Shown here one piece after another: positions 12,300 to 60,933 of a stretch of 64,000 nucleotides of DNA (positions are counted from its first letter, which is position 1; each line of letters begins with the position of its first letter). Position numbers and translations under genes: made by a program. The stretch covers positions 1-64,000 of the forward strand of contig CAILUD010000040.1 in NCBI GenBank assembly GCA_903837285.1. Direction: 5' to 3'. Source of the DNA: an uncultured Bacteroidota bacterium (GTDB lineage Bacteria; Bacteroidota; Bacteroidia; Bacteroidales; GWA2-32-17). The notes below the pieces were generated by a model. The model did not search any database, had not been told where the DNA came from, and was given only the letters and a program-made list of their open reading frames with translations.

Positions 12300-12336
12300 T
12301 TTTTATTATCCCCTTTTTTTGTCATCATGCTCTTTC

Positions 12337-12812
12337 TGTCATCCAGAGTGCAGTGCAACGAAACGAAGGATCTAGTCCGTAATACATGGATTCTAGACTA
12401 GATTCTTCGCTGCGCTCTGAATGACATTCTACTTTTTCTGTCATCCAGAGTGTAGTGTAACGAAACGAAGGATCTGGTTCGTAATATTTAGATTCTAGAT
12501 TAGATTTTGCTGCGCAAGAAAATAGTTATCTTCGGTGATAAAGTACTTCGCGGAGTTTATCCTGACGAAGGAAGGGCTCTGAATGACATTCTACTTTTTC
12601 TGTCATCCAGAGTGTAGTGTAACGAAACGAAGGATCTAGTTCGTAATACCTGGATTCTAGACTAGATTCTTCACTTCGTTCTGAATGACATCCTACTTTT
12701 TTTGTCATCCAGAGTGTAGTGTAACGAAACGAAGGATCTAGTAAGTAATACATGGATTCTAGACTATATTTTACTTCGTAAGATAAAGTTCTTCGCTGGG
12801 CTCAAAACGACA
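12337..12812. repeat. Tandem array of four palindromic intergenic repeats
   Basis: Four related units: 12337-12426, 12439-12588, 12601-12690 and 12703-12812. Each begins TGTCATCCAGAGTG, continues with CGAAACGAAGGATCT, and ends with a near-inverse (AGATTCTTCGC followed by CTGAATGACA), so each can fold into a long imperfect hairpin. Unit 2 carries about 60 extra bases and unit 4 has a degenerate 3' arm. Spacers between units are about 12 bases and share a TTCTACTTTTTC-like sequence, which points to duplication of unit plus spacer. The same family recurs at 17525-17591, about 43900-43980 and 60740-60898. Confidence 0.85.
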
Positions 12813-17469: not shown

Positions 17470-17524
17470 TTTTTTTAATATTAGATAAGTTTGGAGAGTT
17501 TAATAAAAAAATCAAATAGCACAA

Positions 17525-17591
17525 TGTCATCCTGAGTGTAACGAAGGATCTATATTCGGAATATAGATTCTTCGCTACGCTCTGAATGACA
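17525..17591. repeat. Single palindromic repeat, same family as 12.3 kb array
   Basis: A compact and nearly perfect copy: TGTCATCCTGAGTG with CGAAGGATCTATATTC on the left and GAATATAGATTCTTCG with CTCTGAATGACA on the right. It lies after the stop of the propeller gene, where it may also act as a terminator-like hairpin. Confidence 0.8.
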
Positions 17592-45116: not shown

Positions 45117-45435
45117 CAATGTAATTAAGTTAAGGGAATTTCTTTAAGTATTTTTGCTTTTATGTATCATCTACGAAGATGATCGTTGTTGTTTTTAAGA
45201 TTATTATAATAATTGAACCTACTTCGACTTTGCTCAGCACAAGTCTACAAGGTTCTATAATAAAAAGATACTTGAAAAAAACGTGAATTCAGTTTTGAAG
45301 GTCGTAGATCTTCCATTTTTGTAAAATGCCTATAATAATGGATTAATAAAGGTTGTAGACCTTTCACTACAACTAGAGTAGATAAAATTTTAATTCTTTT
45401 CAGAGTTGTTTGTGATGCTTAACTTAATGACATTG
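45117..45435. mobile_element. MITE-like element with 18-bp terminal inverted repeats
   Basis: CAATGTAATTAAGTTAAG at 45117-45134 matches the reverse complement of CTTAACTTAATGACATTG at 45418-45435 at 17 of 18 positions. The same termini, with few changes, bound the 188-bp element at 54392-54579. The interior has no open reading frame of note and includes degenerate inverted stretches. No target-site duplication can be seen, so this is probably an older copy. It fills most of the gene-free interval between ribF and the TlpA-like gene (44972-45600). Confidence 0.6.
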
Positions 45436-51908: not shown

Positions 51909-54344
51909 ATGACTTCTTCAGAAATATCGCCCGAAACTGAAAAACAAATATCCTTTGATGACTTTAGAAAAGAAGTTCTTCACGATTATTATGTTGCAGT
52001 ATTAAGTCGCAAGTTGAGTATTACAGGCCGAAAAGAAGTGCTTACAGGCAAGGCTAAATTTGGAATTTTTGGCGACGGAAAAGAAATAGCTCAGATAGTA
52101 ATGGCCAAGAATTTTAAAAATGGTGATTGGCGTTCGGGTTATTATCGCGATCAGACTTTTATGCTTGCCTCTGGAATGTTAACTCCTGAACAATTTTTTG
52201 CACAACTTTTTGGTGATACTGATATTCGAAATAATCCTCATAATAGCGGACGATCATTTAATAATCATTTTAGCGTTGCAAATATAAATTCAGATGGTTC
52301 TTGGAAAAATTTAGTAACACAGAAAAATTCTGCTGCTGATTTGTCACCTACTGCAGGACAAATGCCTAGATTAACTGGTTTAGCCTGGGCTTCAAAATTA
52401 TACCGACAAAATCCAGAATTAAGTCAATTTACTTCTTTTTCTGACCATGGTAACGAAGTTGCTTTCGGAACAATTGGTGATGCAAGTACATCTGAAGGTC
52501 ACTTTTGGGAAACAATAAATGCAGTAGGAGTTTTACAAGTTCCAATGGCATTATTTATCTGGGATGATGGTTATGGAATTTCTGTACCGAAAAAATATCA
52601 GACAACAAAACAAAGTATTTCTGAATTGTTACGAGGTTTTGAAAAGGACAACAGAGGCGGAATTTTAATTTATAAAGTTAAAGGTTGGGATTATGTTGGA
52701 ATGGTAAAAACATTTGCCGAAGGAGTTGAGCGTTGCAGAAAAGAACATATTCCGGTTATTTTTCATGTCGAGGAAATGACTCAACCACAAGGACATTCAA
52801 CTTCCGGTTCTCACGAGAGATATAAATCGCAGGAAAGACTAGCTTGGGAAATTGATTTGGATCCAATTACAAAAATGCGTGATTGGTTAATTGAAAAACA
52901 AATTGCAACACCAGAGGAATTAGATAAAATACAAGATGATGCAGAAAATATAACAAAAGCTGCAAAACAAAAAGCCTGGAACGATTTTACCGAACCAATT
53001 AAACGCGAAAGAGATGAGTTGATAAGGATTATTGACAATCGTACATGCATGTGTAAGCGTGAACATATTGATAAGGTAAGTATAATTACAGATAATTTAA
53101 GGAAGATTGTTAACCCAATAAGAAAAGATATTTTCAGTTCTTCCAAAAAAATACTTCGCCATGTTTGTCTTGATTGTAACATTAGGAAAAAGTTGCAGGA
53201 AGATATTCAGTTTTGGTTAAAAAGAAATTATGTTGATGCAAGAATTCGTTATAATAGCCATTTATACATTCAGACAGATAAATCGGCATTAAAGGTTAAA
53301 GCAATACCTGTGCTTTTTAATGAAAATTCTGTAATGGTTAATGGTCGCGAAATATTAAGAGATAACTGGGATTATTTATTTAGTAAAAATCCTTTGTTAG
53401 TTGCATTTGGCGAGGATGTTGGAAATATTGGAGGAGTAAACCAATCATTTGAAGGATTACAAAAAAAATATGGCGAGATTAGAATTAGCGATACAGGTAT
53501 TCGCGAAACAACAATACTCGGACAAGGAATAGGAGTTGCTTTACGAGGTTTGCGCCCAATTGTAGAAATTCAGTATTTTGATTATTTGTTATATGCTTTG
53601 CAAACTTTAAGTGATGATTTAGCATCATTGCATTTCAGAACCGCAGGTGGACAAAAAGCCCCGGTAATAATATCTACACGTGGTCATAGGCTCGAAGGAA
53701 TCTGGCACTCTGGTTCACCTCTAAGCATGGTTATAAATTCCATTCGTGGGGTATATGTTTGTGTTCCCCGTAATATGACTCAGGCAGCAGGATTTTATAA
53801 CACTTTGTTACAAGCCGATGATTCTGCAATTGTAATTGAACCATTAAACGCATACCGTTTAAAAGAAAAACGTCCCGAAAATATTGGTGAATTTAAAGTT
53901 CCGCTAGGAGTTCCCGAAATATTAACAACAGGTACTGACGTAACGCTTTTAACCTATGGCTCATGTGTCCGCATTGCACAAGATGCGGTAGACCAGTTAA
54001 AAGAATTTAGAATAAATGTTGAGTTAATAGATGTTCAAACACTTTTACCATTTGATGTGAATAATGTTATTGTCGAATCTGTTAAGAAAACGAATAAAGT
54101 AGTATTCTTCGATGAAGATGTACCGGGGGGAGCAACTGCATTTATGATGCAAAAAGTTCTTGAAGAACAAGGAGCATTTCAATACCTAGATGCAGAGCCA
54201 ATAACAATTACAGCTCAGGAACATCGTCCGGCTTATGCTTCAGATGGTGATTACTTCTCGAACCCAAATGCCGAAGATGTGTTTGAAGGAATTTATGATT
54301 TAATGCATAAATATAATCCGGGAAAATATCCGCAGATTTATTAG
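51909..54344 (+). CDS. Fused 2-oxoacid dehydrogenase E1 alpha/beta
   Basis: 811-aa thiamine-diphosphate enzyme in which E1 alpha (about 1-330) and E1 beta (about 480-811) are one chain, likely the branched-chain or related 2-oxoacid dehydrogenase E1. E1 alpha has GTIGDASTSEGHFWETINAVG as the ThDP motif, ending in WDDGYGIS where NN is usual. E1 beta has AFGEDVGNIGGVNQSFEGL, DTGIRETTILGQGIGVALRG and EDVPGGATAFMMQKVLEE. The linker contains CMC (C380, C382) and CLDC (C420, C423). No E2 or E3 gene is nearby. Alone on its transcript. Confidence 0.92.
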   Translation: MTSSEISPETEKQISFDDFRKEVLHDYYVAVLSRKLSITGRKEVLTGKAKFGIFGDGKEIAQIVMAKNFKNGDWRSGYYRDQTFMLASGMLTPEQFFAQLFGDTDIRNNPHNSGRSFNNHFSVANINSDGSWKNLVTQKNSAADLSPTAGQMPRLTGLAWASKLYRQNPELSQFTSFSDHGNEVAFGTIGDASTSEGHFWETINAVGVLQVPMALFIWDDGYGISVPKKYQTTKQSISELLRGFEKDNRGGILIYKVKGWDYVGMVKTFAEGVERCRKEHIPVIFHVEEMTQPQGHSTSGSHERYKSQERLAWEIDLDPITKMRDWLIEKQIATPEELDKIQDDAENITKAAKQKAWNDFTEPIKRERDELIRIIDNRTCMCKREHIDKVSIITDNLRKIVNPIRKDIFSSSKKILRHVCLDCNIRKKLQEDIQFWLKRNYVDARIRYNSHLYIQTDKSALKVKAIPVLFNENSVMVNGREILRDNWDYLFSKNPLLVAFGEDVGNIGGVNQSFEGLQKKYGEIRISDTGIRETTILGQGIGVALRGLRPIVEIQYFDYLLYALQTLSDDLASLHFRTAGGQKAPVIISTRGHRLEGIWHSGSPLSMVINSIRGVYVCVPRNMTQAAGFYNTLLQADDSAIVIEPLNAYRLKEKRPENIGEFKVPLGVPEILTTGTDVTLLTYGSCVRIAQDAVDQLKEFRINVELIDVQTLLPFDVNNVIVESVKKTNKVVFFDEDVPGGATAFMMQKVLEEQGAFQYLDAEPITITAQEHRPAYASDGDYFSNPNAEDVFEGIYDLMHKYNPGKYPQIY

Positions 54345-54391
54345 AAATATTATAGTTTATTTCATTAAACACATTTGGCGCAAGCGTCCGC

Positions 54392-54579
54392 TCAATGTCA
54401 TTGACTTAAGAAAATTTCATTTCGTTAACCCATTTGCTTACTTCTCGATACGCTTTGCTACTCGAAGTGGCAAATAGCAATTGTTCCTCCGCCGTTATGC
54501 GGCGGAGGAACAATCTAGTATGCTAGTTCGAGTTCAATCGAGAACTACAGGAAGCCTGAGCTTAAGTCAATGACATTGA
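54392..54579. mobile_element. 188-bp MITE with 19-bp perfect inverted repeats and 8-bp target duplication
   Basis: TCAATGTCATTGACTTAAG (54392-54410) is the exact reverse complement of 54561-54579. GCGTCCGC is present directly before (54384-54391) and directly after (54580-54587), an 8-base target-site duplication. Removing the element restores the left REP hairpin. The interior includes a perfect 15-bp stem hairpin (ATTGTTCCTCCGCCG, loop TTATG) and no open reading frame, so it is non-autonomous. Confidence 0.8.
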
Positions 54580-54597
54580 GCGTCCGCTTGTGCCACT

Positions 54598-55029
54598 AAT
54601 GAATATTGTATAAAAAATAAAGGTCTTGTAATTTATTCCTGGTGTATTATGACTAACCATGTACATATGATAATTTCAAGCAAGCAGGATGAGGTAAAGG
54701 ATATAATGCGGGACATGAAAAGTTATACATCCAGAATGTTAAAACAAATAATAGAAAAAAATCAACAGGAAAGTAGAAAAGAATGGATTCTAAAAATGAT
54801 GGTAAAAGCTGGAACTGAAAACAAAAATAATAATGATTTTCAATTATGGCAACAACATAATCACCCTATTATTTTAGATACTATTTTTTTAATAGATCAG
54901 AAACTAAATTATATTCATAATAACCCCGTTTTTGCCGGATTTGTTGAAAAACCTGAAGAATATTTATATAGTAGTGCAAGAGATTATGCTGGATTAGAAG
55001 GGTTAATTGAGATTACGATAATTGAATAA
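54598..55029 (+). pseudogene. 5'-truncated REP-associated tyrosine transposase (Y1/IS200-like)
   Basis: The frame from the ATG at 54649 (126 aa) has MTNHVHMIISSKQ with the HUH motif HVH, then LWQQHNHPIILDT and LNYIHNNPVFAGFVEKPEEYLYSSARDYAGLEG, the C-terminal signature of Bacteroidota RAYT proteins. In-frame homology extends upstream to YCIKNKGLVIYSWCIM at about 54604, but there is no start codon, and roughly the first 35 residues expected for the family are missing. It is likely inactive. It lies inside REP-like inverted ends. Confidence 0.85.
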
Positions 55030-55187
55030 TATTGTGGTAATGGCACAAGTGGACACTTGCGCCAAATGTGTATTGTGGTATTGGCACAACTGGCTGTTGC
55101 GCCAAATGTTTTTATTTTTTATACTAGTCAAATTTTTATTAAGGGTTAAAAGTTGTTAAAGTACTTGACAAATGTTCTTTCAGTTTG

Positions 55188-60739: not shown

Positions 60740-60898
60740 GTCATTCTTAACTAAGTGAAACGGAATGAAGAATCTATTCTAGAGTATAGATTCTTCGCGT
60801 TGCTCAGAATGACAACGCGGATTTTTGCGGCCGAGAAACGTAGTGAAATGAAGAATCTATTCTAGAGTGTTAGATCCTTCGTTACACTCAGGATGACA
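60740..60898. repeat. Two tandem palindromic repeats of the TGTCAT family
   Basis: Unit A (60740-60813) runs from GTCATTCTTAACTAAGTG to CTCAGAATGAC with GAATCTATTC/TATAGATTC in the middle. Unit B (60829-60898) has TGAAATGAAGAATCTATTC and GTTAGATCCTTCGTTACACT then CAGGATGACA. Same family as at 12.3, 17.5 and 43.9 kb. They lie between the convergent FISUMP gene and the ferritin-like gene. Confidence 0.8.
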
Positions 60899-60933
60899 TT
60901 GTGGTTTAGGATGATATTTTGATTTGTGTAAAA

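Follow-up and report, generated by a model that had tools for sequence, protein, structure and literature searches.

An apparent ISPa1635-like MITE of the IS4 group at the symmetry axis of a REP hairpin in an uncultured Bacteroidota bacterium

Results

A split REP hairpin beside a truncated RAYT

Our window, the whole 64,000-nucleotide stretch of an uncultured Bacteroidota genome (G000) that was analysed, contains a large gene ending at 54344 whose 811-aa product is, by its look, a putative thiamine-dependent 2-oxoacid dehydrogenase. Reading the sequence downstream of this gene, we found all three layers that an initial annotation had described there (REP hairpin, MITE and RAYT fragment), ordered as a REP hairpin split by the MITE, a RAYT truncated at its 5' end and a pair of inverted REP-like hairpins (Table 1), with exact matches of ACATTTGGCGCAA at 54371 (+), 55057 (-) and 55097 (-). 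An Rfam scan of the MITE/REP region returned no match, and a search for similar DNA in plasmids found none. Other repeats in the window include a 203-nt repeat present twice, close together and in direct orientation (12320-12786, copies 87% identical), and a 42-nt inverted repeat pair (17511-17552 and 60871-60912; 90% complementary, 43 kb apart) that resembles an interspersed intergenic repeat.

Table 1. Window coordinates of the features of the split REP hairpin, the MITE and the RAYT fragment
Feature	Coordinates	Strand	Remark
Left arm of interrupted REP hairpin, TGGCGCA + AGCGTCCGCT	54376..54392	.	
Left copy of target duplication AGCGTCCGCT	54383-54392		last 10 bases of left REP arm
MITE, 186 bp	54393..54578	.	
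MITE left terminal inverted repeat	54393..54410	+	
MITE central perfect 15-bp palindrome, ATTGTTCCTCCGCCG-TTATG-CGGCGGAGGAACAAT	54480..54514	.	
MITE right terminal inverted repeat	54561..54578	-	
Right copy of target duplication AGCGTCCGCT (54579-54588) + remaining right REP arm TGTGCCA	54579..54595	.	
Deletion junction (RAYT leader and ~40 codons gone)	54596..54597	.	estimated from alignment with congener's intact unit
RAYT 3' part, 143 stop-free codons	54598..55029	+	
Longest ATG-started ORF within RAYT fragment	54649-55029		
Inverted REP hairpin TGGCGCAAGTGTCCACTTGTGCCA, 3' of RAYT	55041..55064	-	
Second, related REP-like hairpin, TGGCGCAACAGCCAGTTGTGCCA	55082..55104	-	

Rejoining the sequences on either side of the MITE restored TGGCGCAAGCGTCCGCTTGTGCCA, which over the 36-nt site folds into a hairpin of -11.2 kcal/mol (z -4.7). 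The initial annotation was right that the MITE had entered a REP hairpin that was there first. This REP is rare, with five full-length sites (up to 3 mismatches) and two that carry a MITE, or about 7 in 4.29 Mb.

By its match to PF01797 (4.6e-9), the RAYT fragment belongs to the Y1 transposases; it keeps the NHVH (HUH) and YIHNNP motifs and matches the REP-associated tyrosine transposase model NF047646 at 8.5e-20 and 71.1 bits, a score below the cut-off of 80 as expected of a truncated protein. In congener G004 (contig C69), an intact 184-aa homologue (77% identical) lies between a REP on its 5' side and an inverted REP on its 3' side, and aligning the two units shows that the window copy has lost a leader of ~47 bp and ~40 N-terminal codons, the junction falling immediately beyond the hairpin. 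These profile matches and the intact unit uphold the claim of a 5'-truncated RAYT beside REP hairpins, and the split REP is very probably the left-hand terminus of a REP-RAYT-inverted REP unit whose RAYT lost its start in a separate event. The accompanying claim that the RAYT decayed later than the MITE arrived does not follow: the remaining codons are free of stops and the adjacent deletion leaves the hairpin itself untouched, which gives no order relative to the MITE. After the same upstream gene, congener G001 has other DNA with no REP, MITE or RAYT, so that the whole unit is absent there.

In arrangement the locus resembles the IS200/IS605-related REP-RAYT units, with a Y1 transposase between a REP and an inverted REP (intact in G004), but it differs from them in its low REP copy number, its 5'-truncated RAYT and its lack, on reading the sequence directly beside the window hairpins, of a GTAG or CGTC tag. 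That tag defines two large REP super-families and not all REPs (PMC3733652).

The MITE and its target duplication

The MITE is bounded by perfect 18-bp terminal inverted repeats, CAATGTCATTGACTTAAG, and had been described as a 188-bp element with 19-bp repeats (TCAATGTCATTGACTTAAG, 54392-54410 and 54561-54579) and an 8-base duplication. A search of the 64 kb for that 19-bp repeat, allowing up to 3 mismatches, gave 3 matches against 0.04 expected by chance. Comparing copies, we found that the outermost base of the longer repeat is T, C or G depending on the copy and follows the target; we therefore assign that base to the target, which leaves an element of 186 bp and repeats of 18 bp. With element starts set at CAATG for the duplication analysis, the best duplication length was 10 bp in 46 of the 62 elements whose duplication could be recognised. 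Perfect 10-bp duplications were present in 24 of 97 candidate pairs, and a group of Lachnospiraceae copies has 9 bp. Duplications are thus consistent among the other copies, at a length of 10 rather than 8 bases, and in the window AGCGTCCGCT/AGCGTCCGCT is a perfect 10-bp duplication whose centre coincides with the hairpin axis. This length agrees with the direct repeats of about one helix turn that mark the IS4 family.

No open reading frame of 40 aa or more lies inside the element, its size is below 600 bp, and as single-stranded DNA it folds into one long imperfect hairpin (-52.6 kcal/mol, z -11.4). It therefore has the properties by which a MITE is recognised: it is short and non-coding, ends in inverted repeats and occurs in multiple copies with duplications at different sites. 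Among prokaryotic MITEs are NEMIS, RUP and ERIC (PMC3733652). Our element resembles these in being short and non-coding, with inverted ends and strong secondary structure. The ends of NEMIS, RUP and ERIC are not known to be related to those of this MITE, and they belong with other IS families.

Copies within and beyond the genus

Beyond the window copy, G000 carries four further copies with both ends, two that are degraded or one-ended, and one diverged relative, and there are many copies in G004 and at least one in G001; across these three genomes the copies have different flanks, and six are duplicated at 9-10 of 10 bp. The same ends were present in 38 of the 395 genomes of our class sample, and also in Firmicutes, Desulfobacterota and others.

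Several features of these copies stand apart. A diverged 319-bp element at 45117-45435 of the window has related ends, CAATGTAATTAAGTTAAG ... CTTAACTTAATGACATTG, and no surviving duplication. Aligning 12 copies, we saw MITE lengths of 186, 197 and 208 bp, most differences being steps of 11 bp that stem from a mini-palindrome resembling TCCGCCGCGGCGGA at two TCGAG/CTCGA sites within the MITE; this mini-palindrome is a genome repeat (~35 sites) and is itself a MITE target. Five copies, mostly from Lachnospiraceae or related (L040, L085, L104, L111, L155), have 9-bp duplications and a common GTTnC-nTTCAC-like target, possibly another preferred repeat. At L209, L210, L335, L342, L345 and L346, inverted and not direct repeats flank the element, with the loop inverted on one side, and among the loci of a newly fetched set several G772 copies and one G719 copy have such flanks, like L209 and L210. 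Among 118 distinct elements, inverted-repeat flanks reached p<0.01 in 10 (1.2 expected) and p<0.05 in 19 (5.9 expected); as a guess, they could perhaps stem from homogenisation of arms by template switching in a large palindrome.

Coding elements with the same ends

The MITE ends are common to the coding elements L066, L199, L200 and L201/L271. In L066 they enclose an IS4-family transposase gene (1718 bp, 447 aa, 9 of 10 bp duplicated), as they do in L199/L200 (1440 bp, 435 aa, duplications of 10/10 and 8/10). Against NF033592, the NCBIfam IS4 model with a cut-off of 115, L066 scored 142.7 and L199 181.9 bits, and both transposases, 29% identical to each other, contain the Y-2-R-3-E-6-K (YREK) motif. 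A search by sequence for a solved structure of the L199 transposase gave no match.

On sequence comparison, the closest named element appears to be ISPa1635 of Pseudomonas plasmids, whose ends, CAATGTCATCAACTTTG, are nearly those of the MITE, whose transposase is 33% identical to the L199 protein and of whose copies 5 of 7 read have perfect 10-bp duplications. It shares with the MITE the ends CAATGTCAT-AACTT, the 10-bp direct repeats and an IS4_1-type transposase related to those found with the MITE's ends; it differs in being a full-length coding IS of ~1636 bp from Gammaproteobacteria, and most of its copies that we read lie away from palindromes. The IS4 subgroup IS4Sa has ends CA------T, repeats of 8-10 bp and lengths of 1150-1750 bp (PMC2266710, Table 1). 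Judged by ends (CAATGTCAT), duplication (10 bp) and length of the coding elements (1436-1718 bp), our family is consistent with this subgroup.

Seeking a partner in G000, we found no IS4_1-type transposase and no NF033592 match, in an assembly of 233 contigs from which a copy could be missing. The sole DDE_Tnp_1 protein of this genome was rejected as a partner because no such ends lie beside it, and the IS4_1 proteins that congeners G001 and G002 encode showed no good match to the MITE ends. Orphan MITEs are common, so its status as a MITE stands although no partner was found, and the MITE looks orphaned in this genome. Mobilisation here would then be historical, or due to a lost or unassembled copy.

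Insertion at palindrome axes

The initial annotation had suggested that these MITEs may favour hairpins. Of 13 copies evaluated from the genus, 11 have a duplication whose midpoint falls no more than 1.0 bp from the axis of a palindromic repeat, with three repeat families involved (REP 2, ATTGCGGGCTTGACCCGCAAT 3 and GTCCGCCGCGGCGGAC 6, some of the last having 4 mismatches and being seen in only one duplication copy of the two), and the remaining two lie elsewhere; control positions in the same flanks fell within this limit in 0.05% of cases. All three families also occur intact elsewhere in the genome, at 5, 23 and ~35 sites. Since the families were chosen post hoc, partly from the target sites themselves, and the number of mismatches allowed was decided by eye, the nominal p (4e-35) makes the case look stronger than it is. 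The two REP insertions stand on their own as support: they are 186 and 208 bp long, in opposite orientation and with different flanks, which makes them independent, and both have an offset of 0.0 bp.

These two insertions bear on two other accounts of the pattern. The presence of two copies of this genome in the same REP, together with the longer flanks that some G772 copies share, could suggest that the hairpin arms belong to one larger REP-MITE unit moved by RAYT or by recombination, an account we consider very improbable given that the two REP copies differ in MITE length and orientation, that intact REPs free of any MITE exist, and that genus copies, each flanked by a duplication of its own, are spread over three or more distinct palindromes and other DNA. 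Alternatively, insertion may involve no hairpin preference, and only copies in dispensable intergenic repeats persist; the genus targets are indeed repeats of the interspersed kind, and outside the genus related copies lie mostly in ordinary DNA. We judge such survivorship improbable, as intergenic persistence fails to explain either the placement of 11 of 13 copies within 1 bp of an axis or two independent insertions at the midpoint of a REP that numbers ~7 full-length copies across 4.29 Mb. The reading that we prefer is insertion at the axis, such that a transposase of the genus would have favoured palindrome axes and MITEs would have built up in REPs and in palindromic repeats of other kinds.

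With a generic palindrome score that draws on no knowledge of the families, p<0.05 was reached at 2 of the 7 duplication-bearing sites of the genus (one at 0.050), a weak signal because several targets are decayed or short, and at 3 of 11 sites in Firmicutes, 5 of 17 in other Bacteroidota and 2 of 17 in Desulfobacterota and others. The full-length element L066 sits at a palindrome axis (p=0.002). In a later test with the same fixed score, none of 10 newly fetched Bacteroidota loci scored as lying at a palindrome, and of the ISPa1635 copies 1 of 7 did (p<0.05) and most did not. We therefore reject the idea that elements with these ends prefer hairpins in general: the suggestion holds within the genus, with its axis placements and independent REP insertions, but does not extend to a rule, and insertion at axes is a habit of the lineage.

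As to the cause of this habit, it is possible that the transposase reads sequence and not structure, namely a weak symmetric 10-bp consensus (~RNTTNNAANY) that palindromic repeats happen to contain, a question separate from the identity of the element. The logo of 46 sites is symmetric and reaches 0.41 bits at most, in the outer positions of the duplication; against this, the three genus repeat families share symmetry and little sequence, and several duplications (CCGTCGCGGT, AGCGTCCGCT) match the consensus poorly. That the transposase instead recognised palindromic symmetry or an extruded cruciform, and hence used the axes of three unrelated families, is a tentative and somewhat doubtful proposal.

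Discussion

We consider it very probable that the locus holds an ISPa1635-like IS4-family MITE, inserted in trans by cut-and-paste at the axis of a REP palindrome, beside a RAYT unit that was shortened separately. From the ends, the duplication and the coding relatives we infer a course of events in which the MITE would carry only the ends that a transposase recognises, and that transposase, acting in trans, would make a 10-bp staggered cut at the symmetry axis of the REP and insert the element there.

Insertion of IS elements into REPs, some at the palindrome axis, has been described by Tobes and Pareja and includes the IS4-family ISRm22 (IS4Sa, Sinorhizobium meliloti), all copies of which lie at the REP palindromy axis (PMC1525189). 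By that description our MITE is like ISRm22 in being an IS4-family element at a REP palindrome axis; ISRm22 is, however, a coding IS with 6-bp direct repeats in one REP class of a different host (PMC1525189). The pattern of all copies in one REP class fails for our MITE, for which 2 of 13 copies are in this REP, 9 in two other families and 2 elsewhere. REP palindromes are also targets of ISPsy8, IS1397, ISKpn1, IS621, ISPpu9 and ISPpu10, with ISPsy8 at the hairpin axis (PMC1525189). These differ from the MITE in being coding and, where lengths are given, in having direct repeats of 2-3 bp. They are members of the IS3 and IS110 families and are not known as IS4 elements. Within the literature searched, we found no paper describing this kind of MITE insertion into a REP and no report of a palindrome-axis habit for this IS4 / ISPa1635-group element.

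REP-axis targeting by IS is thus already known, and what is new is an ISPa1635-like MITE family that uses several palindrome families. With the true ends and the 10-bp duplication, this MITE family can be annotated correctly in different phyla. Its natural target set, with exact axis positions, makes it possible to ask which of the two an IS4 transposase reads, the structure of DNA or its sequence, and REP-axis targeting, known for a few coding IS, is extended to an ISPa1635-like MITE family of the IS4 group.
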